A DNA stretch of 64,000 bases. Source: Rhizobium lusitanum (GTDB taxonomy: Bacteria > Pseudomonadota > Alphaproteobacteria > Rhizobiales > Rhizobiaceae). Shown here piece by piece: positions 12,195-29,133 of the stretch. The stretch is taken from positions 1,674,001-1,738,000 of the forward strand of contig NZ_CP050307.1 of the NCBI RefSeq assembly GCF_014189535.1, in the 5' to 3' direction. The translations under genes and the position numbers were made by a program. The first letter of the stretch is position 1; every line of letters starts with the position of its first letter. Below the pieces are notes generated by a model, which searched no databases, had not been told where the DNA came from, and worked only from the letters and a program-made list of their open reading frames with translations.

Positions 12195-12238
12195 TTGACA
12201 GATAGCCGCCCCGCGGCAATCATTCGTATACAAACGAA
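12195..12238 (+). promoter_or_regulatory. Promoter plus operator A for the nicAB-like operon
   Basis: A -35 box TTGACA (12195-12200) is followed after exactly 17 bp by AATCAT (12218-12223). Operator TCATTCGTATACAAACGAA (12220-12238) overlaps and follows the -10. TTCGT/ACGAA are inverted arms. The same arrangement recurs at 18138 and 21900, and the operator also at 17348 on the other strand. Confidence 0.75.
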
Positions 12239-12267: not shown

Positions 12268-12381
12268 ATGACTATCTTGACAAAGTGCGGCAGCAACTGC
12301 TCGGTTTCGCATCGCCTCCCGCCATCTCGGGAGATGACGATCCATTCCATCGCGCTTGCGACGGGAAGGGAGACGTGGTGA
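12268..12381 (+). other. Possible upstream ORF coupled to the 2Fe-2S subunit gene
   Basis: An ATG just after a GGGAACAG element opens a 37-codon frame whose TGA (12379-12381) overlaps the GTG start at 12378 of the next gene (GTGA). This geometry would allow translational coupling. It shows no protein similarity that I recognise, so it may be a leader peptide or chance. Confidence 0.3.
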
Positions 12382-12884
12382 AGACTCGTCCGATCGCTCT
12401 TGATGTCAATGGGCACCGCCACACGCTCGACCTGTCCCCCGAAACGCCACTCCTCTACATCCTGCGCAACGATCTCGGTCTCAACGGGCCGAAATTCGGA
12501 TGCGGCCTCGGCGAATGCGGCGCCTGCGCGGTGCTGATCGGCAAGCGTGCCGTGCGCGCCTGTACGATATCGGCCGCCGCCGCCGAAGGACGCGCCATCG
12601 TCACCCTCGAGGGTCTCGGCACCGAGGACAGGCTGCATCCGGTGCAGCAGGCCTTCATCGAGAAACAGGCCGCGCAATGCGGTTATTGCCTGAACGGCAT
12701 GATCATCGCGACCACCGCCCTGCTTCTTCGCAACGCAAATCCGGATGAGACCACCATTCGCTCGGCCCTGAAGCACCATCTCTGTCGCTGCGGCACGCAT
12801 ATCGAGATCCTCGCGGCTGCCCGCCGTGCCAGTGAACTGATGACCGCTCTCCCCTCCTCGGCAATCGTGGAGGATGCACCATGA
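12378..12884 (+). CDS. nicA: [2Fe-2S] subunit of molybdenum hydroxylase (nicotinate dehydrogenase small subunit-like)
   Basis: A 168-residue electron-transfer subunit of the xanthine-oxidase family. The N-terminal plant-ferredoxin cluster is in FGCGLGECGACAVLIG with a later Cys, and the second cluster is in CGYCLNGMI and HHLCRCGTH, so all eight cysteines are present. It passes electrons from the Mo subunit to the cytochrome c domains of its partner. GTG at 12378 is chosen because AAGGGAG lies at the right distance; a longer frame from 12285 adds a non-family N-terminus. Its stop overlaps the start of the Mo subunit gene. NicA of Pseudomonas putida has this size and layout; isoquinoline 1-oxidoreductase small subunits are close relatives, so the substrate is inferred from context. 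Confidence 0.8.
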   Translation: MKTRPIALDVNGHRHTLDLSPETPLLYILRNDLGLNGPKFGCGLGECGACAVLIGKRAVRACTISAAAAEGRAIVTLEGLGTEDRLHPVQQAFIEKQAAQCGYCLNGMIIATTALLLRNANPDETTIRSALKHHLCRCGTHIEILAAARRASELMTALPSSAIVEDAP

Positions 12885-15800
12885 CCGCGCCGCTAGAGAC
12901 GCCCCGCGCCAGCTATCTGGAAGCGGATGAAATCCTGCTGGTGGTCAAGCCTGGCGACGCGCCCCAGCCCGACATTTTCCTTGCCCTTCATCCCGATGGG
13001 ACCGCCAGTGCCTTCAACGGCCATGTCGATCTCGGCACCGGCATCCGCACGGCTCTAGCACAGATCGTCGCCGAAGAGCTCGACCTGCCTTTCGAACGAG
13101 TCCATATGGTGCTCGGCAGCACGACGGCGGCACCCGATCAGGGCGCGACGATCGCCAGCGAAACGATCCAGGTGACGGCGATCCCGCTGCGCCACGCTGC
13201 GGCAACCGCGCGGCGCTGGCTTCTCGATCAGGCCGCCCTCCGATACGGTGTCCCGGCACAGACGCTCTCGATTGAGGAAGGCGTCATTCACCCGGAAACA
13301 TCGGCCAACTGGTCAGTCACCTTTGGTGAGTTGATCGCCGGGGGCCATGAACGGATCGCCATCGATGTTACCGCGCCGATCAAGCCGGTAGAGAATTACA
13401 GGATCGTCGGCAAGCCGCAGCCGCGCAACGACATCGCCGCCAAGGCGACGGGACAGTGGACCTATGTCCATGATGTCCGCGTGCCCGACATGCTGCATGG
13501 CCGTGTGGTCCGCCCGCCCTATGTCGGCTTCGACCAAGGCTCGCATGTCGGCCACAGCCTGATCTCAGTCAACGAAGCCTCGATCGCCGATATCCCCGGT
13601 CTGGTCGGGGTGGTGGCGATCGGCGATTTCGTCGGAGTCGTCGCTACGCGCGAGGAGAATGCCGCCGAGGCAGCGCGCCGGCTCGAGGTCGTCTGGCGCG
13701 ATCCGCCGCTCCTGCCCGATCTCAACAATCCGGAACAGGCGCTGCGCGACAATCCGGCCCAAAAGCGCATTCTTGCCGATCAGGGTGATGTCGAACGCGC
13801 GCTCGAAGGCGCGTCGCCGCGTTTCGACCGCAGCTACGTCTGGCCCTATCAGATGCACGGCTCCATCGGCCCGTCCTGCGCCGTCGCCGATTGGCGCCCG
13901 GAGCGGCTGATCGTCTGGTCGGGAACGCAAAACCCCTATCCGATGCGCCGCGATCTGGCGCTTCTGCTCGACATGCCGGAAGAGGCAGTTCTCGTCGAGC
14001 GGCTGGAGGCGGCCGGCTGTTATGGGCGCAATTGCGCCGACGATGTGACCGCCGACGCGGCCCTTTTGTCGCGCGCGGTCGGCCGCCCGGTGCGTGTGCA
14101 GCTCACCCGCGAACAGGAGCATGGCTGGGAGCCGAAGGGGGCCGCGCAGGTGATCGACGTGCGCGGCGGGCTCGATCTCGAAGGCGGGCCAGCGGCTTAC
14201 GATTTCGAGACGCGCTATCCGTCGAACCTGTCGCCGACGCTTGCCCTGATCCTGACCGGCAGAGCCTCGAACGTTGCGACGGTGGCGGAGATGGGCGACC
14301 GCACGGCGATCCCGCCCTATGCCTTCAGCAATATGCGTATCGCCGTGCAGGACATGCCGCCGATCGCGCGGGCCTCATGGTTTCGCGGCGTTTCGGCCAT
14401 GCCGAACAGCTTTGCACATGAAAGCTATATCGACGAGCTCGCCTTCGCGGCCAAGGTCGACCCCGTCGAATACCGGCTGCGCTATCTGAAGGATCCGAGG
14501 GCGGTCGATCTGGTCCATGCAGTCACCGAACGTGCCGGCTGGACGCCGCGCACTGCGCCGGGAACGATGGGCGGCGAAGGCGACCTTCTCTATGGCAGGG
14601 GTTTTGCTTACGCGCTCTATGTGCACGGCAAGTTCCCAGGAACACCGGCCGCCTGGTCGGCCTGGGTCGCCGATGTCGCCGTCAACCGCAAGACCGGCGA
14701 GATCGCGGTCACGCGCGTGACCGTCGGCCAGGATTCCGGCATGATGATCAATCCGGATGGCGTGCGACACCAGATCCACGGCAATGTCATCCAGTCCACC
14801 AGCCGCGTGCTGAAGGAGAAGGTCGATTTCTCCAGCACCGCGGTCGAGAGCGCCGAATGGGGCGGCTACCCGATCATCACCTTCCCGGAAGTGCCTGAGA
14901 TTGATGTCCTCATGTTGCTGCGGCAGGATGAAGAGCCGCGCGGCGCCGGCGAATCCGCCTCGGTCCCGTCGGCCGCTGCCATCGTCAATGCCGTCTTCGA
15001 CGCCACCGGCATCCGGTTCCGCGAGTTGCCGCTGACGCCGGAGCGCGTGCTCGCCGCGCTTGGCGAAACACATCTAGCACTCGCTCCGCCAGCCCCAGTC
15101 AAAAAACCATGGTGGCGGCGTGGATCGACGCTCGCAGGCATGGGCGGCGTTGTCGCAGGCGTGCTTGCCGGCGGCATTCTCGCCGCCTCGCCTTGGCGCG
15201 GCGCTTATCCGGAGATCACACGGCCGGACCCCGGCACCTACAGCGCCGCCACGATAGAGCGCGGACGCCTGGCAGCAGCAGCCGGCGCCTGCAATGTCTG
15301 TCACACCGGACCAGACGGGACCCCCCTTTGCCGGTGGCCGTGCCTTCGACACGCCGTTCGGCGTGGTCCACGCCACGAATATCACCCCCGACGCTGAAAA
15401 CGGCATCGGCGCCTGGTCCTATCCGGCTTTCGAACGGGCAATGCGCCAAGGCGTGCGCCGGGATGGAAAGCATCTCTATCCGGTCCATCCTTACCCCTCC
15501 TTTGCCGGCGCTACCGACGCGGATCTCCAGGCACTCTATGCGTTCCTGATGACGCAGACACCTTCTGACGCAAAGGCTCCGGAGAATGCCTTGCGCTTCC
15601 CCTTCAACATCCGGCCCTTGCTGGCCGGCTGGAATATGCTTTTTGCGGGCGGACGGACGGTGCCGGCGGATGCAACGAAGAGTGAAGGCTGGAACCGTGG
15701 CGCCTATCTCGTCGAAACACTCGGCCATTGCGGCGCCTGCCACACGCCGCGCAATGCACTCGGCGCGGAAAAGAAAGGCGACTTCCATCTTGCGGGCGGC

Positions 15801-16439
15801 CTCGCGGAGGGCTGGGATGCGCCGGCGCTGAACGGTGCCGGTCTCGCCCCCGTCGGCTGGAGCCAGACGGCGCTCTACGACTATCTGCGTACCGGTACGG
15901 CCAAGGGCCACGGCAGTGCCGGCGGGCCGATGGGCGCAGTCGTCAAGGCGCTTGCTCCGCTTCCAGACAGCGATATTCAGGCCATGGCGACGTATCTGGC
16001 AAGCTTCTCCGGGCAGACTGAAGAGGGTGCTACGGCACATCAGACAACCGCACTCGCCAACACGAAGGCGGCGGAAGCAACGGCGGCACGGATAGCGCCG
16101 GTAGGAGCGCGACTGTTCGAGGGTGCCTGTTCAGCCTGTCACACCGAGACTTCACCGCTCGGATCGCTCGCCTTCAATAGCAGCCTGCACGCCGATAGGC
16201 CCGACAATGTCCTGCTGACGATGATGCACGGAGCGGAAGCGCCGGCGCTACTTGCCCAGAAGGCGGGCGCAGATGCCGCCGAGATCATGTCCATGCCGGC
16301 TTATGGCGAAAGCCTGAGTGATCGCCAGTTGACCGACCTCGCCGCCTATCTGCGCGCCCGCTTTGCCCCCGACAAGCCTGCATGGCAGGATCTTGGCGCT
16401 GCGATCGAACGCGCTCGCGCCGTCCAGCCGATGGATTGA
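12881..16439 (+). pseudogene. nicB: Molybdopterin plus triple cytochrome c subunit (nicotinate dehydrogenase large subunit-like), frameshifted
   Basis: One locus of about 1,185 residues, close to the roughly 1,190 of P. putida NicB. Residues 1-730 are a xanthine-dehydrogenase-type Mo-cofactor domain (for example GHVDLGTGIRTALAQIVAEE and the late RGAGESASVPSAAAIVNA). A transmembrane helix (TLAGMGGVVAGVLAGGILAA) follows near residue 760. Three heme-binding CXXCH sites come next: CNVCH, CGACH and CSACH. Reading frame is lost at a C6 run (15321-15326), directly after the first heme motif; removing one C restores GTPFAGGRAFDT. The protein should be anchored in the inner membrane and hydroxylate an N-heterocycle with water, passing electrons to the respiratory chain. 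Downstream genes point to nicotinate -> 6-hydroxynicotinate. Confidence 0.78.
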
Positions 16440-16477
16440 AGTGCAATGAATGCGCGACGGCGGAACTGATCGAAGGT

Positions 16478-17320
16478 TCAGCCGACGAAAGCGCGCTCGA
16501 TGACGAAGGTCGCCGGCGCATTGTTGGCGCCTTCGATAAGACCGAAGGATTCCAGAACAGCTTTGGTATCCTTCAGCATCGCCGCCGAACCGCAGATCAT
16601 ACCGCGATCCTCATCCGGATTGATGCGCGGCAGGCCGGTCTCTTCAAAGAACTTGCCGCTGGTCAGAAGATCGGTGATCCGGCCCATGCGCGCAAAGGGT
16701 TCGCGCGTCGTCGTCGTATGCAGGCGCAGCCGTTCGCCGACGAGCTCGCCGATCAACGGATCATCCTTCAGCGTCTCCACCATCTGCGTAATATAGGTGA
16801 GCTCTTCCACGTCACGGCAGGTCTGGATGAGGACGATTTCCTCGAATTTCTCATAGGTTTCCGGATCGCGGATCAGGCTTGCGAAAGGCGCAACGCCGGT
16901 GCCGGTCGATAGAAGATAGAGCCGCTTGCCCGGGATCAGCGCATCCAGTACCAGCGTGCCGGTCGGCTTCTTGCGCATCAGCACGGTGTCGCCGGGCACG
17001 ATTTTCTGCAGATGTTCCGTCAACGGGCCGTCCGGAACCTTAATGGAATAGAATTCGATCTCCTCGTCCCAGAAGGGGCTGGCGATCGAGTAGGCGCGAA
17101 AGACCGGCTTTTCGGCATTCGGCAGGCCGATCATGATGAACTCGCCCGAACGGAAACGGAATTCCGCCGGCCGCGTGATGCGGAACTTGAACAGCCGGTC
17201 GGTGAAATGCCGGACCTCGGTCACCGTCTGGACAAAGACATTGGCGGGGATCGGAAAGGCCGGCGCGGAACCTGCCTGCTGACCGTCAATGATGACTGCT
17301 TCTTCCGTTGACAAGCTCAT
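16478..17320 (-). CDS. fpr: Ferredoxin-NADP+ reductase
   Basis: A 280-residue flavoprotein of the bacterial Fpr class. The FAD-binding motif is RAYSIASP, the NADP-binding glycine motif is LLSTGTGVAPFASLI, and a conserved CRDVEELTY segment follows. The start at 17320 has GAGGGAAG upstream; a longer frame from 17386 would read through the operator. The gene is transcribed toward nicB and is preceded by the same operator as the nic operons, so it is probably co-induced. Likely job: reduce a ferredoxin with NADPH to drive the 6-hydroxynicotinate-reductase-like protein encoded nearby. No ferredoxin gene is visible in the window. Confidence 0.88.
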   Translation of the reverse strand: MSLSTEEAVIIDGQQAGSAPAFPIPANVFVQTVTEVRHFTDRLFKFRITRPAEFRFRSGEFIMIGLPNAEKPVFRAYSIASPFWDEEIEFYSIKVPDGPLTEHLQKIVPGDTVLMRKKPTGTLVLDALIPGKRLYLLSTGTGVAPFASLIRDPETYEKFEEIVLIQTCRDVEELTYITQMVETLKDDPLIGELVGERLRLHTTTTREPFARMGRITDLLTSGKFFEETGLPRINPDEDRGMICGSAAMLKDTKAVLESFGLIEGANNAPATFVIERAFVG

Positions 17321-17347
17321 CCGTCTTCCCTCGCCTTGGTCGCTCAT

Positions 17348-17369
17348 ATTCATTTGTACACGAATGAAT
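17348..17369 (-). promoter_or_regulatory. Operator B upstream of fpr
   Basis: A near-perfect palindrome whose core is TCATTTGTACACGAATGAA (17350-17368), with arms ATTCATT/AATGAAT. On the minus strand a -10-like GTAAAA lies just upstream of it, as in the other three operator sites. The -35 here is weak. Confidence 0.7.
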
Positions 17370-17461
17370 TTTACTGCGCAATCCATTCCTTGCGCGAACC
17401 AGACAATGTTTCGTCATCGCCGACGGCAGAAAGAGGGAATCGAGGGCTTGAGAGCCGCAGT

Positions 17462-17908
17462 TCAGCAGATTTTTTGCAGCAGCTCGAGGAACATCATCCG
17501 CTCACCTGAGGTGAGCGGCGCCAATGTTCCCTCGGTCGCCACAAGCGCCGCGCCAACATTCGCGGCAATGACCGCGAGGCCGTCTTCGGTCAGCGACAAC
17601 ACAACCCGGCGGCCGTCATTCTGGTCCGGCGCGGTCGCGACGAAACCGCGCTTGACCAGGCGATCCACGACCCCTTTGACGGTCGCGACATCCATCGCCG
17701 TTTCGCGCCCGAGTTGGTTCTGCGAGCAGGGCTGGATTTCCTTGAGCTTCGAAAGCGCCGACCATTGCGTCGTCGTCAGCTTGTCGCCGATGGCGTTGGT
17801 AAAGATTGCCACATGCCGCTGGTTGGCCTGCCGGAGAAAGAACCCGACCTGCCGATCGACATGATATTCGGGCGCGGCGGATTGTCTGTCTTCACGCGAT
17901 TTCTGCAT
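17462..17908 (-). CDS. MarR-family regulator (MarR 2), NicR-like candidate
   Basis: A 148-residue MarR protein. The N-terminal phrase HVDRQVGFFLRQANQRHVAIF is typical of the MarR subgroup that includes NicR of Pseudomonas. The winged helix follows (CSQNQLGRETAMDVATVKGV..LVKRGFV) with the wing PDQNDGRRVVLSL. The ATG at 17908 has GGGACA upstream; a longer frame to 17932 is less likely. It lies behind fpr, in the middle of the operator-bearing genes, so it is my best guess for the repressor that binds operators A-D, with 6-hydroxynicotinate or a related acid as possible effector. MarR 3 at 27068 is a close relative and a competing candidate. Confidence 0.85.
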   Translation of the reverse strand: MQKSREDRQSAAPEYHVDRQVGFFLRQANQRHVAIFTNAIGDKLTTTQWSALSKLKEIQPCSQNQLGRETAMDVATVKGVVDRLVKRGFVATAPDQNDGRRVVLSLTEDGLAVIAANVGAALVATEGTLAPLTSGERMMFLELLQKIC

Positions 17909-18137
17909 TTGTCCCGCCCCGGATCTGCGCATATGGTTGCAACATCGATAAGCTGTTCTAGTTTCAAAAGATTAGAGCGTCATTGTGTGTTGATGTAAAC
18001 GCTCGAGGTCCCAAGCCTCTACTTTGAAGACCGCATTTGTCAACGCCGCAGCTCCTTAAGAACCGGATCAATCGATGGCCGTGACGACGCGCATCTGTTC
18101 CGGCGACAGCATTTTTATCAGACCTCCCCGCCGTCGC

Positions 18138-18184
18138 TTGACAGGACCGATAGACGGGCTGATACTCATTCGCATACAAATGAA
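18138..18184 (+). promoter_or_regulatory. Promoter plus operator C for the reductase operon
   Basis: TTGACA (18138-18143), 17 bp, GATACT (18161-18166), then operator TCATTCGCATACAAATGAA (18166-18184). A GGGAACA element follows at 18189 and a 9-codon ORF starts at 18196. Layout is the same as at sites A and D. Confidence 0.75.
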
Positions 18185-18270
18185 AAATGGGAACAATGAC
18201 GGTCAAATATCTGTCCATGGGCTGATGGCAGCACCACCGGACGAGCGGCCGCGTTAAAATGGAGAGTGCC

Positions 18271-19764
18271 ATGGTCAAGCAACGCGTGGAAAGCGTCGCA
18301 AACGGCAAGATACGCTGCGATGCCTGTCCCGTCATGTGCTATATCTCCGATGGTCGCTCCGGCGCCTGCGATCGCTACGCCAATGTCGGCGGCGAGCTGA
18401 TCCGCGTCGATCCGCTGACGATCATCGAAAACACCATTTCCGAAGGCGGCAATGTCGTGCCGTTCCTGGCCCAGCCGGGCGAGAGCGAATGGGACGGCGA
18501 CATCGTCCACGCCACCAGAAGCTTCGTCACGGCCGTCGGCGCCGGAACAACCTATCCCGACTACAAGCCGGCACCCTTCATCGTCTCGCAGCAGGAAAAC
18601 GGCGTCGACATGGTGACCGTCGTCACCGAAGGCATCTTCAGCTATTGCGGCGCCAAGGTGAAGATCGACACCGACCGGTTTCTCGGCTCGGAAACGGCAA
18701 CCGTGCGGGTCGACGGCGAAGCGATCGGCCATGTCACAACCGGCGAATACGGTTCGCAGATGCTGTCACTCGGTGGCGTGCATCACTTGACTGGCGGCTC
18801 CCAAAAGGAAGGCCGCATTACCTGCGACGCCCTATTGAGACTCTGTAATGGCGAATCCGTCGACATGCAGGTCGACGGTGGGGTCAACCTGACCATCAAG
18901 GCAGGTGCTGCACCTGTTATCAACGATGTCGAGGAAAGCCGCATGCGCGTCGGCTGCGGCTCGGCGACGATCGGCATGTTCGCCAAGCAGTGGATGGGCC
19001 ATGTCGATGAGGTCGTCGTCGTCGACGACCATATCACCGGCGTGCTCTCCGAACACCAGGCCGGACGCCTGCTCGATGTGCCGGCCACCGGTATTCGCAT
19101 CAAAGGCCGGCGCTCGACGCCCGGCCGTTATTTCCAGGTGGCCGAACCCGGCATTGGCTGGGGCGGCACCAACATTTCCGATCCCTTGACCATCCTCGGT
19201 GATTTCGACCCCAAGACCGCCTGGCCGGGCATGCGCATGCTGATGGTGTCGACCACCGGCGAGCAGTATGGCTACTATATTCTCGACGACAATCTGCGGC
19301 CGGAGCTGCAGATAATCCTCCCAGCAGCCCTGCAGGAATCGGTCGAGATCATCGCCGAAAACTGCGAACCGGCGCTGACCTCGGTCCTCTTCATCGGCGG
19401 CGCTGGCGGCAGCCTGCGCGCCGGCGTCACCACGAACCCCGTCCGCCTGACGCGCTCCGTCAAGGAGGCGCTGACCCATGTTTCCTGTGGCGGCGTTCCA
19501 GCCTATGTCTGGCCGGGCGGTGGCATCACCGTCATGGCCGACGTCACGCAAATGCCCAGCAACGCCTTCGGCTATGTGCCGACGCCAGCGCTCGTTGCGC
19601 CAATCGAATTCACTATGCGGCTCGATGACTACCGCGCGCTCGGCGGCCATATGGAGGCCGTCATGCCGATCGAGCAGGCACTTGAACTGGCCGAGCGCAA
19701 GGTCACACCGATCGGTCGTGGCCCGTGGCCGACGGAAAGCCGAAACTTCCGGTGGGGCGCCTGA
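18271..19764 (+). CDS. 6-hydroxynicotinate reductase-like Fe-S protein
   Basis: A 497-residue protein with an N-terminal cysteine cluster CDACPVMCYISDGRSGACDRY (residues about 17-37), suited to bind an Fe-S centre, and a long C-terminal domain rich in glycine motifs (FIGGAGGSLRAGV, YVWPGGGITVMADV). This architecture fits the family annotated as 6-hydroxynicotinate reductase, known from the anaerobe Eubacterium barkeri, which uses reduced ferredoxin to make 1,4,5,6-tetrahydro-6-oxonicotinate. The start at 18271 has GGAGAG at good distance; 18259 is an alternative. It heads an operon with UPF0280 and two AA_synth genes and carries operator C. The family assignment is from memory of the motif pattern, so function is probable, not proven. 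Confidence 0.72.
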   Translation: MVKQRVESVANGKIRCDACPVMCYISDGRSGACDRYANVGGELIRVDPLTIIENTISEGGNVVPFLAQPGESEWDGDIVHATRSFVTAVGAGTTYPDYKPAPFIVSQQENGVDMVTVVTEGIFSYCGAKVKIDTDRFLGSETATVRVDGEAIGHVTTGEYGSQMLSLGGVHHLTGGSQKEGRITCDALLRLCNGESVDMQVDGGVNLTIKAGAAPVINDVEESRMRVGCGSATIGMFAKQWMGHVDEVVVVDDHITGVLSEHQAGRLLDVPATGIRIKGRRSTPGRYFQVAEPGIGWGGTNISDPLTILGDFDPKTAWPGMRMLMVSTTGEQYGYYILDDNLRPELQIILPAALQESVEIIAENCEPALTSVLFIGGAGGSLRAGVTTNPVRLTRSVKEALTHVSCGGVPAYVWPGGGITVMADVTQMPSNAFGYVPTPALVAPIEFTMRLDDYRALGGHMEAVMPIEQALELAERKVTPIGRGPWPTESRNFRWGA

Positions 19765-19782
19765 CGGCAAAGGAGCGATAGC

Positions 19783-20805
19783 ATGTCGCGGCCTGTTGCC
19801 CGATATCTCGATGGTGGTGATCCGAACGGCCGGCTGCATTTGCAGCACGGGCCGATCGATCTCGTCATCGGCGTCGATGACGGCGGCGCTGCCCACAAGG
19901 GCGAAGCCGAACGGCGCGCTCGTGCTTTCGCGGCTGCCATTGCCCGTTTCCAGACTGTCCTCGACGAATTGGTGAGCGAACTGCCCCTGCTCCGCACACC
20001 CGCCGAAATTGGCAGCCCGATGCTTACGGGCTCGGTCGCCCGACGCATGGTCGCCGCGGTCCGGCCCTTTGCCGCTGACCATTTCATCACGCCGATGGCC
20101 GCCGTCGCCGGTGCCGTTGCCGACGAAATCCTGGCCTCGATGCTGGCAGGCTTCGACAAGGACGACCGCCCTCACCGCGCCTATGTCAACAATGGCGGCG
20201 ACATTGCCGTCCATCTTGAAGGCGATGCTGAGTATCGTGTCCGTATGGCCCGCGAAGACGGCGCTTCGCTCGGCGATTTCGCGCTGCGTGCCTCCAGTCC
20301 CACGCGCGGCATCGCCACCAGCGGACGCGGCGGGCGCAGCCTGTCGATGGGGATTGCCGACTCCGTGACCGTATTGGCGACGAATGCGGCGGCGGCCGAC
20401 GCGGCGGTCACGCTTGTTGCCAATGCCGTCGATCTCCCCGGCCATGCCGCCATCAGCCGGGCACGCGCCATCGACGTCGTCGACGACAGCGATCTCGGCG
20501 AACGCCTGGTTGTCACCGGCTGCGGGCCCCTGACCGATGCGGAAATCGACATGGCGCTTTCCCGTGGCCTTGCCAAAGCGGAGCATTTCATCGCGCTCGG
20601 CCTCATCGATCGCGCCGGCCTCTTTCTCGCGAACCAAGGCCTGCTCGCCATGCCGTCCGCAGCTGAGCCACTTTGCAGCCTCATCTCTTTCAATCGATCA
20701 ATCCATGGAGCGGTTTTCCAATGCCTGACGTCAAGATCCGCAAGTTCCTCACCATCATCGAGGAAATTTATCATGAAGGCGGCAAGCCCGTCGAAAAGCC
20801 GCTGA
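19783..20805 (+). CDS. UPF0280 (ApbE-related) family protein
   Basis: Encodes up to 340 residues of the UPF0280 family, distantly related to the flavin transferase ApbE, function unknown. Family features include an Asn-Gly-Gly-Asp motif (YVNNGGDIAVHLEGDA), AVAGAVADEIL and the SMGIADSVTVLATNAAAADAA segment. GGAGCGAT precedes the ATG. The last 30 or so residues are Ser-rich, unlike the family, and overlap the next gene by 85 bp. A one-base insertion near 20640 would instead end the protein at the TGA at 20664-20666 and leave a normal gap, so another indel is possible. ApbE-like folds handle FAD, so it may help flavinylate or mature an enzyme of this pathway; that is speculation. Confidence 0.8.
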   Translation: MSRPVARYLDGGDPNGRLHLQHGPIDLVIGVDDGGAAHKGEAERRARAFAAAIARFQTVLDELVSELPLLRTPAEIGSPMLTGSVARRMVAAVRPFAADHFITPMAAVAGAVADEILASMLAGFDKDDRPHRAYVNNGGDIAVHLEGDAEYRVRMAREDGASLGDFALRASSPTRGIATSGRGGRSLSMGIADSVTVLATNAAAADAAVTLVANAVDLPGHAAISRARAIDVVDDSDLGERLVVTGCGPLTDAEIDMALSRGLAKAEHFIALGLIDRAGLFLANQGLLAMPSAAEPLCSLISFNRSIHGAVFQCLTSRSASSSPSSRKFIMKAASPSKSR

Positions 20806-21305
20806 AGCGGGGAGCGATCGTCGCCGTCATCGAAAACCCGTTCGCGGGCAGCTATCATGAGGAAATCACCGGTTTCATGAAGGATCTGGAGCCGCTCGGC
20901 CTCGACATGGCAAACCGACTGGTCGCGGCACTCGGCGGCGACCCCACCATTGTCGAGGGATACGGCAAGGGCATCATCGTCGGTCAGGCCGGCGAACTGG
21001 AGCATGGCGCGCTTTGGCATGCGCCGGGCGGCTACGCCATGCGCGAAGTGCTGGGCGGCGCCAAGGCGATCGTCCCCTCATCGAAGAAGGTCGGCGGCCC
21101 CGGCACGCGGCTCGACGTACCGGTCACCCATATCAACGCCTCCTATGTTCGAAGCCATTTCGACTCCATCGAAGTCGGCGTGCCGGATGGTCCGCGCGCC
21201 AACGAGATGGCGGTCGTGCTGGTGATGACCACCGGTCCGCGCGTCCATGCGCGTAGCGGCGGCCTCAAGTCTGAGGACATCAAGGGCGAGGACGGCCTGC
21301 GTTGA
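20721..21305 (+). CDS. AA_synth-family (PF06684) protein, first paralogue
   Basis: A 194-residue protein of the family misleadingly called amino acid synthesis (DUF1185). Characteristic segments are AIVAVIENPFAGSYHEE, GKGIIVGQAGELEHGAL, IVPSSKKVGGPGTRLDVP and the C-terminal GLKSEDIKGEDGLR. The Ser-Ser-Lys-Lys-x-Gly-Gly-Pro-Gly loop is invariant between this protein and its neighbour and may be catalytic. Start at ATG 20721 with GGAG upstream. It overlaps the next paralogue by TTGA and so is translationally coupled. The pair may form a hetero-oligomer. No function is established to my knowledge; position in the cluster suggests a step on the reduced nicotinate ring or its product. Confidence 0.82.
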   Translation: MPDVKIRKFLTIIEEIYHEGGKPVEKPLKRGAIVAVIENPFAGSYHEEITGFMKDLEPLGLDMANRLVAALGGDPTIVEGYGKGIIVGQAGELEHGALWHAPGGYAMREVLGGAKAIVPSSKKVGGPGTRLDVPVTHINASYVRSHFDSIEVGVPDGPRANEMAVVLVMTTGPRVHARSGGLKSEDIKGEDGLR

Positions 21306-21886
21306 GCGCCGAGATCCGCAAGATCACCGTCTTCGTCGAGGAGACGCTGAGCGAGATGGGTCAAACCATCTCGCCGCCGACGCGCAAGGCTGCCGCCGTC
21401 GCCGTCATCGCCAATCCTTTCGCCGGCCGCTACGTCGAGGACCTGACGCCTCTGATCGAGATCGGCGCGGAACTCGGCGGCCTGCTTGGCCGCAAATGCG
21501 TCGAAGCACTCGGGATTTCGCCGGCGCAGGCCGAAAGCTACGGCAAGGCGGCGCTGGTCGGCGAGGATGGCGAGCTGGAACATGCGGCCGCCCTGCTACA
21601 TCCATCGCTCGGAAAGCCGCTGCGCGAGGCCGTGGAAAAGGGAGCGGCATTGGTGCCCTCCTCGAAGAAGCGCGGCGGCCCCGGCCGGCCTCTCGATATT
21701 CCGCTCGGGCACAAGGATGCCGCTTATGTACGGTCGCATTTCGACGGGATGGAAGTGAGCCTCGCTGACGCGCCGCGTCCGGCGGAAATCATGGTGGCCG
21801 TCGCTGTCACGGATAGCGGCCGACCGCTTGCCCGTGTCGGCGGGTTGAAGACCTCCGAAGTCGAAGGCAAGGATGGCCTGCGCTAG
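21302..21886 (+). CDS. AA_synth-family (PF06684) protein, second paralogue
   Basis: Also 194 residues, and clearly a tandem paralogue of the preceding gene: AVAVIANPFAGRYVED, GEDGELEHAAAL, LVPSSKKRGGPGRPLDIP, AAYVRSHFDGMEV and the ending GLKTSEVEGKDGLR line up along the full length. The start is a TTG that overlaps the previous stop. Divergence between the two copies is substantial outside the shared motifs, so they have probably specialised, for example as two subunits of one enzyme. Unknown function. It is the last gene of the operon that starts at 18271. Confidence 0.8.
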   Translation: MSAEIRKITVFVEETLSEMGQTISPPTRKAAAVAVIANPFAGRYVEDLTPLIEIGAELGGLLGRKCVEALGISPAQAESYGKAALVGEDGELEHAAALLHPSLGKPLREAVEKGAALVPSSKKRGGPGRPLDIPLGHKDAAYVRSHFDGMEVSLADAPRPAEIMVAVAVTDSGRPLARVGGLKTSEVEGKDGLR

Positions 21887-21899
21887 GGGACGCTCGCGC

Positions 21900-21947
21900 T
21901 TGACAGGCAATCGATCAGGTCCGTAAATTCATTTGTATGCAAACAAT
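21900..21947 (+). promoter_or_regulatory. Promoter plus operator D for the hyuAB-gcdH operon
   Basis: TTGACA (21900-21905), 17 bp, GTAAAT (21923-21928), then operator TCATTTGTATGCAAACAAT (21929-21947) and a GGGAACA element at 21951. An ATG at 21937 lies inside the operator and cannot be the real start of the downstream gene. Confidence 0.75.
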
Positions 21948-21960
21948 AATGGGAACAGTC

Positions 21961-24048
21961 GTGACTCAGCCTTCTTCGAATGAACCATCGAGCCCGACAC
22001 TTGAACAATCGCAGGTCGCGGGTATCGATGTCGGCGGCACATTTACCGATCTCGTGCTCTTCGACACGATCTCCGGCAAGGTCCGTCTCGCCAAGACGCC
22101 GACCACGCTCGACAATCAGGCTTTCGGCGTCCTCAATGCGCTGGACGCGGCGGAAGCCGATGTCGCGGCGCTCGACCTGATCGTGCACGGTACCACGACC
22201 ACCACGAATGCCGTCCTCGAACGCAACCTTTGCCGAACGGGCCTGATTACCACCCGTGGCTTTCGCGACGTGCTGGAACTCGGCCGGCGCACGCGCCCGA
22301 ACCCCTACGGCATGAAGGGCGAGTTTCGCCCGATCATCCCGCGCGACCTAAGGCTCGAGGTTCCCGAGCGCATGGATGCCGCCGGCAACGTGCTGATACC
22401 CCTCGACGAAGACGCGCTCCGCATTGCCTTGAAAGCTTTGGTGGATACGAATTGCGAGTCGCTGGTCATCCACTTCCTGCATGCCTATGCCAATCCGGCA
22501 CATGAATTGCGCGCCGGCGAAATCGCCGCCGAGATCTGGCCGAACGACAACATCACGCTCGGCCATGCGCTTCTGTCCGAAAGCCGCGAGTTCGAGCGCG
22601 GCGTGACGGCTGCCGTCAATGCGTCGGTGCAGCCGCTCCTGGCGCGCTATATCGAGCGTCTCGCCGACCAGCTCGCCACCAAAGGCTACAGGCACGACGT
22701 TCTCGTCATGAACGGCAATGGCGGCATGGTGTCCGCGCGCCACGTCGCCAAGGAAGCAGCAAAGACGGTGATGTCCGGCCCCGCCTCGGGCGTCATGGCC
22801 GCCGCCTATACCGGCCGGCGTGCCGGCATCCCCAACCTTATCACGTATGACATGGGCGGCACATCGACCGACGTCGCGCTGATCCGTAACGCCGAACCGG
22901 CGGTCTCCAACGAGATCGAGATCGAATATGCCATGCCGATCCATGTGCCGATGGTCGATGTGCGCACCGTCGGCGCCGGCGGCGGCTCGATCGCCAAGGT
23001 CACCGCCGCAGGCCTCCTGCAGGTCGGCCCGGAAAGTGCCGGCGCCATGCCGGGGCCAATCTGCTATGGTCGTGGCGGCACCACGCCGACCATCTCCGAC
23101 GCCAACCTGCTGCTCGGCCGTCTCAACCCCTCCAGGCTCAACTCGGTTCCCGGCGGCATCTCCATCGACGGCATCCGCGACCTGTTCGAGGAAAAGCTCG
23201 GTCGGCCACTCGGGCTTGACGCCACGGCGGCCGCCGCTGCCGTCATCCGTATTGCGAATGCCCGTATGGCCGACGCCGTGCGCATGGTCTCGGTCAGCCT
23301 TGGCGAGGATCCGCGCGATTTCGCGCTGTTCTCCTTTGGTGGTGCCGGCCCGCTGCACGCGACTGCGATCGCGCGGGAACTTGGCATTCCAAGGGTGCTG
23401 ACGCCGTCGCGTCCGGGGATCACCAATGCGCTCGGCTGCGTGGTCGCCGATCTCCGGCACGATTTCGTCAACACGGTCAACCGCCCGCTCGATGTCGCCG
23501 ATATGGACGCGGTGCACGCGCTCTTCGAAAAGCAGTCGGCGGAAGGACGCCGACTGATCGGCAAGGAGGCGGTCGCCATTCGCGAGATCCGGGAGATTTA
23601 CTCCGTCGATATGCAGTTCATCGGCCAGACGCATCTGCTGCGGGTGCCGCTGCCGAGCGCAATGCCGACCCGCGCCGAATTGCAGGCTCGGTTCGAGGAG
23701 GCCTATTTCAACCGCTTCCATGTCGAGCTTCCGGAGATCCGCGCCAGCCTCGTCAACGTCAACACCTCGGTGATCGGCCGGCGCACGGAGATCGATCTGT
23801 CCATGCTGATCGATGCGGCCGGACGTAAGAAAACGCTTACCGAAGCGCAGACCGGCACACGCTCGGTCTGGTTCGACGGTTGGCGGGAAACGCCGATCTA
23901 CTGGCGCGATCATCTGCCGCTCAAGGCAACGATACCGGGACCGGCGATCATCGAGCAGATGGATACGACTATCATCCTCGAGCCCGGCGACGTCGCCACC
24001 CAGGACGACGACGGCAATATCATCATCACGATCGGAGCCGGCCAATGA
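21961..24048 (+). CDS. hyuA: Hydantoinase/oxoprolinase subunit A (HyuA-like)
   Basis: A 695-residue member of the hydantoinase A/5-oxoprolinase/acetone carboxylase family. The N-terminal ATP-binding motif VAGIDVGGTFTDLVLFD, LIVHGTTTTTNAVLER, TYDMGGTSTDVALI and FSFGGAGPLHATAIAREL mark the actin-like ATPase fold. GTG at 21961 is preferred, following GGGAACA; an in-frame ATG at 21949 is possible. These enzymes use ATP to open cyclic amides or to carboxylate. With HyuB this pair could hydrolyse a six-membered lactam such as tetrahydro-6-oxonicotinate. That substrate is inferred from neighbours only. Confidence 0.88.
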   Translation: MTQPSSNEPSSPTLEQSQVAGIDVGGTFTDLVLFDTISGKVRLAKTPTTLDNQAFGVLNALDAAEADVAALDLIVHGTTTTTNAVLERNLCRTGLITTRGFRDVLELGRRTRPNPYGMKGEFRPIIPRDLRLEVPERMDAAGNVLIPLDEDALRIALKALVDTNCESLVIHFLHAYANPAHELRAGEIAAEIWPNDNITLGHALLSESREFERGVTAAVNASVQPLLARYIERLADQLATKGYRHDVLVMNGNGGMVSARHVAKEAAKTVMSGPASGVMAAAYTGRRAGIPNLITYDMGGTSTDVALIRNAEPAVSNEIEIEYAMPIHVPMVDVRTVGAGGGSIAKVTAAGLLQVGPESAGAMPGPICYGRGGTTPTISDANLLLGRLNPSRLNSVPGGISIDGIRDLFEEKLGRPLGLDATAAAAAVIRIANARMADAVRMVSVSLGEDPRDFALFSFGGAGPLHATAIARELGIPRVLTPSRPGITNALGCVVADLRHDFVNTVNRPLDVADMDAVHALFEKQSAEGRRLIGKEAVAIREIREIYSVDMQFIGQTHLLRVPLPSAMPTRAELQARFEEAYFNRFHVELPEIRASLVNVNTSVIGRRTEIDLSMLIDAAGRKKTLTEAQTGTRSVWFDGWRETPIYWRDHLPLKATIPGPAIIEQMDTTIILEPGDVATQDDDGNIIITIGAGQ

Positions 24049-25790
24049 GCATCGACCCCATCACACTCAGCGTCATCCAATCCGGCCTGCAGCAAGTCTG
24101 CGATGAAATGGACCTGACGTTCTCCCGCGCCGCCTTCTCGCCCGTCATCGCCGAGGCCAACGATCGCTCCGACGGCATCTATTCGGCAGAGGACGGCTCG
24201 CTGATCGCCCAGGGCGCCGGCGGCCTGCCGGTCTTCGTCGGCACCATGCAATATTCGACGCGTACGCTGATCGAGATGATCGCCTCCGGCAAGGCGGCAG
24301 CGCCGAAGCCGGGCGACATCTATATCGTCAACGATCCCTATCTCGGCGGCACGCATCTGATGGACGTGCGCTTTGCCATGCCGGTCTATCGCAACGGCGA
24401 GATCTTTTGCTGGCTATCGAACACCGGTCATTGGCCGGATACGGGCGGCGCCGTCCCCGGCGGCTTTTCGGCCTCGGCCACCTCCGTCGAACAGGAAGGC
24501 CTGCGCCTGCCACCCGTCCGGCTGTTCAAGGAAGGCAAGCTCGACACCGAGATCTATGCGATCATCTGCTCGAATATCCGCGTTTCCGAGCAGCGCATCG
24601 GCGATGTGAAGGCTCAAGCCGCCGCCCTCCTGGTCGGTCAGGAACGGCTGGTGCGCATTCTCGAACGCTATGGCGACGATACCGTCAGCCAAGCGATCGG
24701 CGAGCTGCGCCGCCGCGCGGCCGAGCAAATGCGCGCCAATATTCGGCTGATCCCGGAAGGCACCTATCGCTCCGTCGCCTATATCGACAGCGACGGCGTG
24801 GTCAACGAACCGCTCGAGATCCGTCTTTCGATCACAGCAACAGGCGACGAGCTTTCCTTCGATTTCGAGGGATCGTCAAAGCCCTGCGCCGGGCCGATGA
24901 ATTCTGTGCTGGCGACGACGCTATCCTCCGTCTACCTCGCCATGCGCCATATCTTCCCGGATGTTCCGATCAGCGCTGGCGCCTTCGAACCATTGAAGGT
25001 GAAGACCCCTGAGGGAACCTTCCTCGATGCCCATTATCCGCGCCCAGTTTCCGGCTGTGCTGCGGAAGTCAGCCAGCGTATCGCCGAAGCGGTGTTTGCG
25101 GCGCTGGTCGAAGCGCTGCCGGATAGGGTGACAGCGTCGCCCGCCGGAAGCTCCGGCAATTTCGCCCTCGGCGGACATGATCCGGAGCGCGGGCGCGGCT
25201 ATGTCATGTACCAGATTTCCGGCGGTGGCTATGGCGGCAACAGCGATCATGACGGGCTCGCCAATGGCTGCTCGACCATCGGCATTTCCAAGGCACCGCC
25301 GGTCGAGATCATGGAGCAGCAATTCCCGGTGCTTTATCATCGCTATGCCCTTCGTGAAGGGTCCGGCGGGGCCGGCAAGCATCGCGGCGGCTTCGGCCTC
25401 GACTACGAGATCGAACTCAGGCGCGGTGCGGCGACCGCGAGCTTCGTCATGGATCACGGCCGTTTTGGACCGCAGGGCGCGCTTGGTGGCAGCGACGGAC
25501 GAACCAACAGCGTTACGGTCTGGCGCGACGGCGAAGCGATGACGCCCGAGCATCTGTCGAAAGCGCAGGACATCGCGCTGAAACCCGGCGACCGCGTGCG
25601 CGTCGGCACGCCGGGCGGCGGCGGCTACGGCGACCCGTTGACACGCGACCCGCAAGCCGTTGTAGAAGATGTGCGGCTCGGTCGTTATACATCGACCGAA
25701 GCGCTCGATCTCTTCGGGGTTGTCTTAACAGTGGATTGCCATACGGATACGAACGCCACCGAACGAGCCCGCGCCAGCCGCAAGGCATAG
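24045..25790 (+). CDS. hyuB: Hydantoinase/oxoprolinase subunit B (HyuB-like)
   Basis: A 581-residue partner of HyuA. Family features are PITLSVIQSGLQQVCDEMD, VIAEANDRSDGIYSAEDGSL, DIYIVNDPYLGGTHLMDVRF, and the C-terminal GSGGAGKHRGGFGLDYEIE followed by VGTPGGGGYGDPLTRDP. The ATG overlaps the HyuA stop (ATGA), so the subunits are made together. In N-methylhydantoinase and 5-oxoprolinase systems this subunit carries out the amide-bond hydrolysis that ATP use by subunit A drives. It lies 42 bp before the glutaryl-CoA dehydrogenase gene in the same operon. Confidence 0.88.
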   Translation: MSIDPITLSVIQSGLQQVCDEMDLTFSRAAFSPVIAEANDRSDGIYSAEDGSLIAQGAGGLPVFVGTMQYSTRTLIEMIASGKAAAPKPGDIYIVNDPYLGGTHLMDVRFAMPVYRNGEIFCWLSNTGHWPDTGGAVPGGFSASATSVEQEGLRLPPVRLFKEGKLDTEIYAIICSNIRVSEQRIGDVKAQAAALLVGQERLVRILERYGDDTVSQAIGELRRRAAEQMRANIRLIPEGTYRSVAYIDSDGVVNEPLEIRLSITATGDELSFDFEGSSKPCAGPMNSVLATTLSSVYLAMRHIFPDVPISAGAFEPLKVKTPEGTFLDAHYPRPVSGCAAEVSQRIAEAVFAALVEALPDRVTASPAGSSGNFALGGHDPERGRGYVMYQISGGGYGGNSDHDGLANGCSTIGISKAPPVEIMEQQFPVLYHRYALREGSGGAGKHRGGFGLDYEIELRRGAATASFVMDHGRFGPQGALGGSDGRTNSVTVWRDGEAMTPEHLSKAQDIALKPGDRVRVGTPGGGGYGDPLTRDPQAVVEDVRLGRYTSTEALDLFGVVLTVDCHTDTNATERARASRKA

Positions 25791-25832
25791 ACTGGCTGCG
25801 ATTGAGAAAAGAAAGAATTGGGAGACGAGAGC

Positions 25833-27014
25833 ATGAGCCGCGAGATATTCGATTGGGCCGATCCGTTCCGGCTGACGGAACAGTTGAACGATGACGAGCG
25901 CATGGTGCTGGACACCGCCCATGCCTATGCGCAGGAGAAGCTGGCGCCTCGCGTGCTCGACGCCTTCCGCCATGAGAAGACCGATCCCTCTATCTTCCGC
26001 GAGATGGGCGAGCTTGGCCTGCTCGGGCCGACGATTGCGCCGGAATATGGCGGCGCTGGCCTCGGCTATGTCGCCTATGGCCTGATCGCCCGCGAAGTGG
26101 AGCGCGTCGACAGCGGCTATCGCTCGATGATGAGCGTGCAGTCCTCCCTCGTCATGGTACCGATCGATGCCTTCGGGTCCGAGGCGCAGAAGCAGAAATA
26201 CCTGCCGAAGCTTGCTACCGGCGAATGGATCGGCTGCTTCGGTCTTACCGAACCGAACCACGGCTCCGACCCCGGCTCGATGGCGACGCGGGCCAAGAAG
26301 GTGGATGGCGGCTATCACCTCACCGGTGCCAAGACCTGGATCTCCAATGCGCCGATCGCTGATGTCTTCGTCGTCTGGGGCAAGACCGAAGACGGTGTCA
26401 TCCGTGGCTTCATCCTGGAGAAGGGCTGGAAGGGTCTGTCTGCGCCCGCCATCCACGGCAAAGTCGGCCTGCGCGCCTCGATCACCGGCGAAGTCGTCAT
26501 GGACAATGTCTTCGTGCCGGAAGAAAACCTGTTGCCCAATGTCTCCGGCCTCAAGGGTCCGTTTACCTGCCTCAACTCCGCCCGCTTCGGCATTGCCTGG
26601 GGAGCGCTCGGTGCTGCCGAGGATTGCTATGCCAAGGCGCGGCAATATGTGCTCGACCGCCAGCAGTTCGGCCGGCCGCTTGCCGCCAACCAGCTGATCC
26701 AGAAGAAGCTCGCCGACATGGTGACCGAGATCACGCTTGGGCTACAGGGCTGCCTGCGTCTCGGCCGCATGAAGGAAGACGGCCATCCGCCGGTGGAGCT
26801 GACCTCGATCCTGAAGCGCAACAGCTGCGGCAAGGCGCTCGATATTGCCCGCGCTGCTCGCGACATGCTTGGCGGCAACGGCATATCCGACGAGTTCGGC
26901 ATCGCCCGCCATCTGGTCAACCTCGAAGTGGTCAACACCTACGAGGGCACCCATGATATCCACGCCCTCATCCTCGGCCGCGCCATTACCGGCATCGCCG
27001 CCTTTTCGAACTGA
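25833..27014 (+). CDS. gcdH: Glutaryl-CoA dehydrogenase (acyl-CoA dehydrogenase family)
   Basis: A 393-residue FAD enzyme of the acyl-CoA dehydrogenase family. [16 protein letters not shown] is the flavin-contact segment. The C-terminal [17 protein letters not shown] carries the catalytic Glu in the exact context seen in glutaryl-CoA dehydrogenases, as does [20 protein letters not shown] near residue 110. The enzyme oxidatively decarboxylates glutaryl-CoA to crotonyl-CoA. GGGAGACGAGAGC precedes the chosen ATG. Its place at the end of the hyuAB operon suggests that the ring-opened N-heterocycle becomes glutarate. No CoA-ligase or CoA-transferase gene for glutarate is visible in the window. Confidence 0.9.
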
Positions 27015-27067: not shown

Positions 27068-27553
27068 CTATTTCTCCGGCGCGCTCGATGATTTGTCATC
27101 ATGGTAGGTCAAAATACGGCGCAGTAGATAAAGCAGGGCCACTCTTTCAGCCGGATTAAGGTCGGCCATGGTCAGCTCACTGATGAGGTGCGCCGCCGGT
27201 ATCATCTCCTCCAGCAGGTCCTCCGCAGCCGGCGTCAGGGACATGATGATCTTGCGTCCGTCCTGCTCATCGCCTGAGGTCGTGATCAGGCCCCGCGCGG
27301 ACAACCGTTCGATGATGCCCCGGATCGTGCCCTGATCGACGGCCGTGGCCTTGACGAGTTCGGTCTGGGAACTCGGCCCATGATCGCGAAGCGCGCAGAG
27401 GGTAACGAACTGAACGGAGGTCAGATTGGGGTCGGAGGCGTTGTCCTGGAAGATCGAAAGATGCCGCTGATACACCCTGCGCAGCAGATGGCCCACCTGC
27501 TGCGTGACATCATAGTCATCCGTATCCGGCCTATCGTGCTTCACATCAGCCAC
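27068..27553 (-). CDS. MarR-family regulator (MarR 3)
   Basis: A 161-residue MarR protein with TQQVGHLLRRVYQRHLSIF near the N-terminus, closely resembling MarR 2, then the recognition helix region SSQTELVKATAVDQGTIRGI and wing SGDEQDGRKIIMSL. It is divergent from the binding-protein gene at 27807, with a 253-bp intergenic region between them. On its own upstream side that region contains TTCGCGTATACACAC (minus strand), which resembles but does not match operators A-D. It may control the adjacent importer, the catabolic genes, or both. Confidence 0.87.
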   Translation of the reverse strand: MADVKHDRPDTDDYDVTQQVGHLLRRVYQRHLSIFQDNASDPNLTSVQFVTLCALRDHGPSSQTELVKATAVDQGTIRGIIERLSARGLITTSGDEQDGRKIIMSLTPAAEDLLEEMIPAAHLISELTMADLNPAERVALLYLLRRILTYHDDKSSSAPEK

Positions 27554-27806: not shown

Positions 27807-28994
27807 ATGAGAGGACTTTTTGCGATTATGGGTACGGCCCTTTGTCTGGCGGCCGGAACACAGGCGATGGCTGGCGAGATCAAGGTCGGCGAGATCAACA
27901 GCTATTCCGCGCTACCCGCATTCACCGATCCCTATAAAAAGGGTTGGCAGCTGGCGCTTGACGAGGTCAATGCGGCCGGTGGCATCAACGGCGACACGCT
28001 GGTGATCATTTCCAAGGATGACGGCGGCAAACCCGGCGACGCGCTGACGGCTGCCAACGAGCTGGTCGCAAAGGAAGGGGTGGTGATGATCTCCGGCTCC
28101 TTCTTTTCCAATGTCGGCATGGCTGTTGCCGACTTCGCCAAGCAGAAAAAGGTCTTTTACCTGGCGGGCGAACCGCTGACCGACGCAATGATCTGGTCGA
28201 AGGGCAACGATTATACCTTCCGCCTGCGTCCGCCGAATTACGTGCAGGCCGCCATGCTCGCGCAGGAAGCCGCCAAGCTGCCGGCGAAGCGCTGGGCGAC
28301 CATCGCGCCGAACTACGAATACGGTCAAAGCGCCGTGGCGGTGTTCAAGGAACTGCTCCAGAAGGCCCGGCCCGACGTGGAGTTCGTCGGCGAGCAATGG
28401 CCGCCGCAGGGCAAAATCGATGCCGGCTCCGTGGCGCAGGCCATCGAGGCCGCCAAGCCGGATGCGATCCTTAACGTCGAGTTCGGTGCCGATCTGGTGA
28501 AGCTCGTGCGCGAAGGCACGACCCGCGATCTCTTCAAGGGCCGCTCAGTGGTTTCCTTCCTGACCGGCGAGCCGGAATATCTCGATCCGCTGAAGACCGA
28601 TACGCCGGAAGGATGGATCGTCACCGGCTACCCTTGGTATTCCGTCGATACACCAGCGCATAAGGCCTTTCTCGACGCTTACCAGAAGCGCTACAACGAC
28701 TATCCCCGCCTCGGCTCGGTGGTCGGCTATGCGCTGGTCAAGTCGATGGCAGCAATTCTCATCAAGGCCAAGTCGACGGATACGGACGCGCTGATTGCCG
28801 CCGCCAAGGGTATTTCGGTCGATACGCCGTTCGGCCCGATCACCTATCGTGCCGCGGATCATCAATCGACGCTCGGCGCCTTCATCGGCAAGACCGCGCT
28901 CAAGGATGGAAAAGGCGTGATGGTCGATTTCCAGTACCATAGTGGCAACGACTTCCTGCCGAGCGAGGCCGACGCCGCCAAGCTTCGCCCCTAA
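27807..28994 (+). CDS. ABC substrate-binding protein (LivK-like, possible N-heterocycle/aromatic acid importer)
   Basis: A 395-residue type I periplasmic binding protein with a Sec signal peptide (residues 1-22, cleavage after AMA). The mature part begins EIKVGEINSYSALPAF and includes DEVNAAGGINGDTLVII, IAPNYEYGQSAVAVFKELL and GYALVKSMAAILIKA. AGAGAGG lies upstream of the ATG. This LivK subgroup often serves aromatic or heterocyclic acids, and the gene follows directly after the nicotinate region with a MarR gene divergent to it, so nicotinate or a related acid is a reasonable but unproven ligand. Confidence 0.9.
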   Translation: MRGLFAIMGTALCLAAGTQAMAGEIKVGEINSYSALPAFTDPYKKGWQLALDEVNAAGGINGDTLVIISKDDGGKPGDALTAANELVAKEGVVMISGSFFSNVGMAVADFAKQKKVFYLAGEPLTDAMIWSKGNDYTFRLRPPNYVQAAMLAQEAAKLPAKRWATIAPNYEYGQSAVAVFKELLQKARPDVEFVGEQWPPQGKIDAGSVAQAIEAAKPDAILNVEFGADLVKLVREGTTRDLFKGRSVVSFLTGEPEYLDPLKTDTPEGWIVTGYPWYSVDTPAHKAFLDAYQKRYNDYPRLGSVVGYALVKSMAAILIKAKSTDTDALIAAAKGISVDTPFGPITYRAADHQSTLGAFIGKTALKDGKGVMVDFQYHSGNDFLPSEADAAKLRP

Positions 28995-29008
28995 CAGAGC
29001 CGTCGAAG

Positions 29009-29042: not shown

Positions 29043-29133
29043 GAAACGGGCATACATTCCGTCATAAAGCATAGCGCCGGCATTCGCTCCGTGGATCGAA
29101 TGCCACCCTTGTTAAATGGGCAGGGAGCCTCCG

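Follow-up and report, generated by a model that had tools for sequence, protein, structure and literature searches.

A reductive nicotinate catabolism cluster of Rhizobium lusitanum in which ring opening has likely passed to a HyuAB-type hydrolase

Introduction

The fermentation of nicotinate by Eubacterium barkeri runs through 6-hydroxynicotinate reductase (Hnr) and the intermediate 1,4,5,6-tetrahydro-6-oxonicotinate (THON). It reportedly (Alhapel, 2006) also involves a selenium-containing hydroxylase, an enamidase (Ena) and a methyleneglutarate branch to propionate, and Kitts is said to have described in 1992 the full Azorhizobium route to glutaryl-CoA. The DNA analysed here, a stretch of 64,000 nucleotides from Rhizobium lusitanum (contig NZ_CP050307.1, positions 1,674,001 to 1,738,000; hereafter 'the window'), harbors at 12378..27014 a gene cluster whose proposed route shares Hnr and THON with E. 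barkeri, but has the hydroxylase NicAB, the hydrolase pair HyuAB and glutaryl-CoA dehydrogenase (GCDH) where the fermentation has the three reported features. The reductive nicotinate route suggested for this DNA in a first-pass annotation is well supported by gene content, and homology makes the presence of a THON pathway very probable. The ring-opening step of the cluster, however, has likely passed to a different enzyme pair that is not related to enamidase.

Reductive nicotinate clusters with the THON route are described, in the relevant portions of PMC3511419, for Azorhizobium caulinodans, Bradyrhizobium japonicum, Rhodopseudomonas palustris (HaA2) and strain SG-6C; there, the SG-6C Hnr is given as 42% identical to that of E. 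barkeri, and the genes for the first three steps as having been found by BLAST from E. barkeri. A further source (PMC9304392), in the excerpt concerned, counts Azorhizobium and E. barkeri among the organisms that use THON and attributes a bifunctional enamidase to the latter. The window resembles these clusters in placing the THON route in an aerobe, but differs, as far as that part of PMC3511419 describes them, in carrying HyuAB, an E. barkeri-type enamidase not having been found. The earlier remark that enzymes of an anaerobic pathway occur here in an aerobe is thus sound, yet not new, since such clusters had been published in 2012 (PMC3511419, in the part concerned); what is new is the ring opener. 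Similarly, the suggested fit to the Azorhizobium route holds for the reductive gene content, but not for the related clusters' enamidase, in whose stead the strain has HyuAB.

Results

Every gene named in the first pass (nicAB, a reductase-like gene, a ferredoxin reductase, a hydrolase pair and gcdh) was recovered where it had been placed, whereas five members of the unit (MarR genes at 17462-17932 and 27068-27553, UPF0280 and two DUF1185 genes) had been left out. With functions as predicted by homology, the cluster reads:

12378..12884, + strand: nicA, [2Fe-2S] subunit of nicotinate hydroxylase (PF01799, E 9e-27; PF00111; 74% identical over 155 aa to the annotated nicA of Neorhizobium NCHU2750)
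12881..15397, + strand: nicB, molybdopterin part, frame broken near the end (MoCoBD domains; 72% to NicB of locus L081)
15294..16439, + strand: nicB, cytochrome c part, in the other frame (cytochrome c domains; a single continuous frame in relatives, e.g. L009)
16478..17386, - strand: fpr, ferredoxin-NADP reductase (PF00970/PF00175; NF008178 below cut-off; operator-like site in front)
17462..17932, - strand: MarR regulator, NicR-like by position (PF01047; neighbour hidden Markov model)
18259..19764, + strand: hnr, 6-hydroxynicotinate reductase (81% to the annotated hnr of L080; invariant cysteines)
19783..20805, + strand: UPF0280 protein, ApbE-like fold (homology stops near residue 295)
20721..21305, + strand: DUF1185 / AA_synth protein 1 (PF06684, E 1e-70)
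21302..21886, + strand: DUF1185 / AA_synth protein 2 (PF06684, E 2e-73; 2qtp (SPO0826), E 1.6e-92)
21937..24048, + strand: hyuA, hydantoinase/5-oxoprolinase-type subunit (PF01968, PF05378, PF19278; N-methylhydantoinase 7hk5, E 1.4e-127)
24045..25790, + strand: hyuB, partner subunit (6yra_B, E 9e-81; NF050157 331.6 bits, cut-off 1000)
25818..27014, + strand: gcdh, glutaryl-CoA dehydrogenase (3gnc, E 1.5e-215)
27068..27553, - strand: second MarR regulator (PF01047)

Both HyuA (which also matches 6yra at E 1e-105) and HyuB are related to solved HyuA/HyuB cyclic-amide hydrolases. They share their two-subunit architecture with N-methylhydantoinase, 5-oxoprolinase and caprolactamase, which are ATP-dependent in their HyuA/HyuB-type forms, and HyuAB is by homology probably an ATP-dependent lactamase; it differs from these enzymes in its proposed substrate, THON, and in falling far below the cut-off of the caprolactamase-beta model. 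A function as ketone carboxylase was rejected, as acetophenone and acetone carboxylase are more distant from the pair than N-methylhydantoinase and oxoprolinase are. The 'lactam-opening hydrolase pair' of the first pass was hence the right clue, although replacement of the enamidase had not been recognised. The enamidase-type amidohydrolase of related loci is orthologous to the enzyme of E. barkeri (2vun, E 5e-109); queried with a 2vun ortholog, the strain's own genome gave no match at E <= 1e-60 (four of 16 candidates scored; weaker matches lie beyond this statement).

Among 73 loci, analysis of the neighbours found an enamidase-type gene in 14 and HyuAB in 27; the two never occurred in one locus, and 32 loci had neither. 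Of the loci compared with the window, L007-L032 were chosen by patterns from its own Hnr and are therefore biased to close kin. The draw from the order contributed L033-L078, which represent 46 of its 91 remaining genomes with Hnr and include every genus at least once; the counts exclude L001-L006 and L079. As genes may lie outside a locus, 397 genomes of the order were additionally searched for each protein. Hnr was present in 92, Ena (at least 550 bits; next match 313) in 68, 55 of these with Hnr, and HyuB (at least 67% identity; next match 59%) in 36, all but one with Hnr (35); both limits were set after the gaps had been seen. The 92 Hnr genomes divided into 52 with Ena only, 32 with HyuB only, three with both and five with neither, and, collapsed to 39 genera, into 24, 11, three and one, respectively. 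Genome-level p-values for such co-occurrence ignore kinship. Both kinds of opener occur, however, within each of five families (f2, f5, f11, f14 and f42) and even within one genus (g127).

A tree of the reductase comprised 58 of 71 full-length Hnr sequences, the 13 with neither or both openers having been dropped. It required four opener changes, two of them forced by starred branches, and a single HyuAB clade was rejected (p 0.012; opener labels for L007-L032 came from the locus alone, and the tested clade had already been seen in an earlier tree). Ena-type Hnr proteins share 64-73% identity with that of the window, and a HyuAB-type group from other families 59-62%. Individual plasmids fit this picture: hnr-UPF0280-DUF1185-hyuAB lies on those of Neorhizobium NCHU2750 and Pleomorphomonas SM30, with Ena absent from the stretch compared, whereas Sulfitobacter pontiacus and a Comamonadaceae bacterium encode Ena (at 74% and 70%), with HyuAB absent from the stretch compared.

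A further link is provided by the palindrome TTYGTATACRAA, whose core was derived from inverted repeats before nicA and at the start of fpr. Allowing at most one mismatch, it occurs four times in the window, each time directly before a cluster gene:

12223..12234, + strand: operator-like palindrome before nicA (TTCGTATACAAA, 0 mismatches)
17353..17364, + strand: operator-like palindrome before fpr (1 mismatch)
18169..18180, + strand: operator-like palindrome before hnr (1 mismatch)
21932..21943, + strand: operator-like palindrome before hyuA (1 mismatch)

At up to two mismatches the window holds seven matches, where 1.95 were expected and seven were reached in none of 100 shuffles. Since the first two sites served to define the pattern, independent support comes from the other two and from relatives. 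Indeed, 28 kb of the window and 72 loci together contained 84 sites, 76 of which were close to the start of a pathway gene (hnr 32, hyuA 14, fpr 12, hydroxylase subunits 14, enamidase 2, marR 2), as compared to 2, 2, 1, 4 and 5 sites in five block-shuffled versions of the same DNA. The shared operators proposed in the first pass are thereby borne out in the window and its relatives, and tie hyuA to the pathway by a signal that is independent of gene order. The hyuA palindrome overlaps the first ATG, and the true start of hyuA may lie slightly downstream of 21937. In three R. lusitanum and R. tubonense loci with nicAB not in reach (L010:3496, L012:3676 and L013:3496), the palindrome stands shortly before another ABC (ATP-binding cassette) transporter set, of which binding protein and permease were seen in L013; this is a possible alternative uptake system.

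The 32 of 92 genomes with HyuAB only, the five mixed families and the operator common to hyuA and nicA/fpr/hnr together suggest that HyuAB opens the reduced ring in the enamidase's place, which we hold to be quite likely from these sequence comparisons. Several observations weigh against it. HyuB and Ena coexist in three Hnr genomes (G098, G209, G248), and neither was found in five (G032, G064, G159, G245, G246), three of which encode a HyuB relative at 57-59%. Thirteen genomes in which no Hnr was found encode an Ena ortholog, the palindrome is missing from 31 of 73 loci (mostly those with another type of hydroxylase or none) and from the hyuA start in 13 of 27 HyuAB loci (present in 14), and HyuAB families span many substrates, including hydantoins, oxoproline and caprolactam as well as ketone carboxylation. 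The genomes with Ena but no found Hnr comprise 12 of family f16 (G099, G130, G225, G244, G278, G307, G321, G334, G347, G371, G383, G394) plus G144, hinting at another use of enamidase in f16.

HyuAB-type clusters might instead degrade some other N-heterocycle or lactam, Hnr reducing another hydroxypyridine and HyuAB being matched to that product. Such a specialization would agree with HyuAB-type Hnr proteins falling partly into clades of their own, with the action of HyuAB relatives on other cyclic amides, and with nicAB being out of reach in 18 of the 27 HyuAB loci (another molybdenum hydroxylase in 11, none found in seven). Yet NicAB orthologs pair with HyuAB in the window and with Ena elsewhere, the openers alternate within families and a genus, the window Hnr resembles Ena-type Hnr proteins more closely than it does the other large HyuAB group, and hyuA shares its operator with pathway genes, all of which makes this alternative unlikely. 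The entry enzyme also speaks for nicotinate: the window NicB is 72% identical to NicB of the oxidative, P. putida-type nic cluster on R. leguminosarum pRL1 (L081), and 59-63% to NicB beside Hnr in Ena genomes.

The pRL1 cluster shares NicAB and a MarR gene with the window and includes products named leucyl aminopeptidase, isochorismatase, alpha/beta hydrolase and FAD monooxygenase, which from names and order we take to be nicX, nicF, nicD and nicC. In the window strain's genome, NicX had no match at E <= 0.001 and the best NicC match was only 30% identical; the claimed absence of the P. putida oxidative genes therefore stands for the two of four named genes that were searched. The NicX query itself was effective, detecting homologs in 20 of 397 genomes, including two of the five same-genus genomes in the draw (96% and 99%); these two lack Hnr, and the other three have neither. 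The two routes are not strictly exclusive, as Hnr is also encoded by two (G237, G309) of the ten genomes whose NicX match reaches at least 570 bits. Given the missing NicX and the NicB similarity, nicotinate is the likely substrate of the hydroxylase.

This hydroxylase is represented by NicA and by a NicB that includes cytochrome c domains and is spread over two frames. The first-pass call of a NicAB-like enzyme is thus correct as to its domains, but overlooked a frameshift that splits nicB in the window's assembly between molybdopterin and cytochrome c parts (12881-16439). This counts against our reading insofar as the strain may not begin the pathway as drawn, and the pathway might even be decaying, the cluster no longer serving growth on nicotinate; nicB is a single frame in four close relatives (L007, L008, L009, L011). 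However, the break adjoins a homopolymer tract, a frequent site of assembly errors, and the remaining cluster genes have open frames, those compared being 94-98% identical to L007 except for the nicB cytochrome c part (89%) and UPF0280 (88%; the first MarR gene lay outside the comparison). The break may be an assembly or sequencing error or a real one, and both parts may still be produced separately; we judge decay to be decidedly unlikely.

Hnr matched no Pfam or NCBIfam model. Among the matches listed, 120 relatives (8000 scored) were 70-97% identical, and all functionally named ones are called '6-hydroxynicotinate reductase', the rest being 'hypothetical' or unnamed. Seven cysteines (C20, C23, C27, C37, C189, C233, C369) are invariant in 42 of 42 aligned sequences. 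By its annotated relatives the window gene thus appears to encode 6-hydroxynicotinate reductase. Fpr is its presumed electron supply. In five loci from Aestuariivirga and kin (L021-L024, L058), hnr lies with MarR and fpr, while UPF0280, DUF1185 and enamidase are not nearby; four of them have a distant second molybdenum hydroxylase in reach, and the L058 genome (G068) carries UPF0280 and enamidase elsewhere on the same contig. An hnr match in another genome (G247:C1:419777-421219) contains one in-frame TGA.

UPF0280 is almost confined to Hnr genomes (UPF0280 in 90, Hnr in 92, 89 shared) and has the ApbE flavin-transferase fold. We propose, at slightly less than even odds, that it loads a covalent flavin onto Hnr. 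The E. barkeri Hnr reportedly carries such a flavin (Alhapel, 2006). Points of weakness are that 40 sequences show no conserved histidine of the ApbE catalytic type from the TSG to the AD..T residues, as read from sequence positions rather than superposed coordinates (six of the 40 have a histidine at residue 187), and that the DxxSGAT-type target motif of ApbE occurs in none of 71 Hnr sequences. In V. cholerae ApbE, His257 has been called absolutely conserved (PMC5655446). UPF0280 as a plain ApbE was rejected on both grounds, which likewise set it apart from the ApbE, Ftp and FmnB flavin transferases. Its frame extends ~45 codons beyond the homologous part, overlapping the next gene's start, and this tail is of low confidence in the model.

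The two DUF1185 proteins score 236.7 and 246.1 bits against PF06684 (cut-off 27), and a tree of 93 sequences places the second copies in a single clade and the majority of first copies in a different one. One or both occur in 35 of the 46 order-drawn hnr loci, and their histidine and arginine residues are kept in at least 97% of the 93 sequences; solved relatives are, in the part of PMC2954203 concerned, hexamers with a conserved histidine cluster. While these properties might suggest that the pair opens the ring and HyuAB does other work, e.g. on a side product, DUF1185 genes accompany Ena-type loci as well. They hence do not compensate for a missing Ena as HyuAB does; DUF1185 as enamidase replacement was rejected, and we regard this explanation as very improbable. 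Nicotinate and trigonelline breakdown should both pass a 2-formyl-dicarboxylate that loses CO2, and by analogy to this common chemistry the pair might be a decarboxylase, a guess we rate as rather doubtful. According to the pertinent section of PMC7913881, TgnF of trigonelline breakdown is homologous to the DUF1185 protein HcdD and is said to stimulate succinate semialdehyde oxidation, no such effect having been seen with HcdD.

Further downstream, the gcdh product closely resembles glutaryl-CoA dehydrogenases, also being near the solved enzymes 3eom and 1siq, and gcdh is the sole own-genome match at E <= 1e-60. A class III CoA-transferase seen near other clusters has own-genome matches of just 35-44% identity, so no gene was assigned to glutarate activation.

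Gene order is conserved among close kin: in line with the proposed comparison to other rhizobia, R. rhizogenes OV677 and NBRC 13257 match the window across the DNA compared, and the Hnr proteins of R. rhizogenes, R. lusitanum and kin (L007-L011, L013) share 96-98% identity with that of the window. The gene series ends in a probable uptake system, judging from similar transporter sets that adjoin hnr in other loci:

27807..32497, + strand: branched-chain-type ABC transporter with binding protein, fused permease and two ATPases (PF13458 and PF02653 for the first two)

Directly upstream, on the opposite strand (4077-11437), an amidase, ABC transporter genes and two receptor-like binding proteins perhaps form an amide uptake unit, whose near end is also found upstream of nicA in L007-L009.

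Discussion

Gene content, the co-regulation signal and the patterns of co-occurrence and replacement are direct observations, onto which the following scheme of predicted activities, substrate and accessory roles may be mapped. Nicotinate would be taken up by the ABC transporter and converted by NicAB to 6-hydroxynicotinate, which Hnr, fed by Fpr via a ferredoxin and perhaps helped by UPF0280 to gain a covalent flavin, would reduce to THON. HyuAB would then open the THON lactam, probably spending ATP, at a step where many relatives use Ena. The opened enamine would lose ammonia and CO2 towards glutarate semialdehyde, a step in which the DUF1185 pair may take part. Glutaryl-CoA would then arise by oxidation and CoA transfer, with no genes assigned to either, and be turned by GCDH into crotonyl-CoA.

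More tentatively, and in combination rather unlikely to hold in full, the HyuAB clade would be a lactamase that opens THON at the expense of ATP and took the place of enamidase on more than one occasion within the order, and UPF0280 a new branch of the ApbE fold that lacks the histidine and has Hnr as its sole client, attaching or inserting its covalent flavin by non-ApbE chemistry. By extension, decarboxylation of 2-formylglutarate would fall to the DUF1185 pair, whose relative TgnF might perform the equivalent reaction of trigonelline breakdown on a substrate shorter by one carbon.

For about a third of the order's Hnr genomes (the 32 of 92 with HyuB in which enamidase was not found), our analysis offers a candidate ring-opening enzyme. 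It also suggests testable roles for UPF0280 and DUF1185 proteins, which are annotated as hypothetical or as 'amino acid synthesis', and portrays a catabolic pathway that appears to retain its reductase while exchanging both hydroxylase and ring opener.

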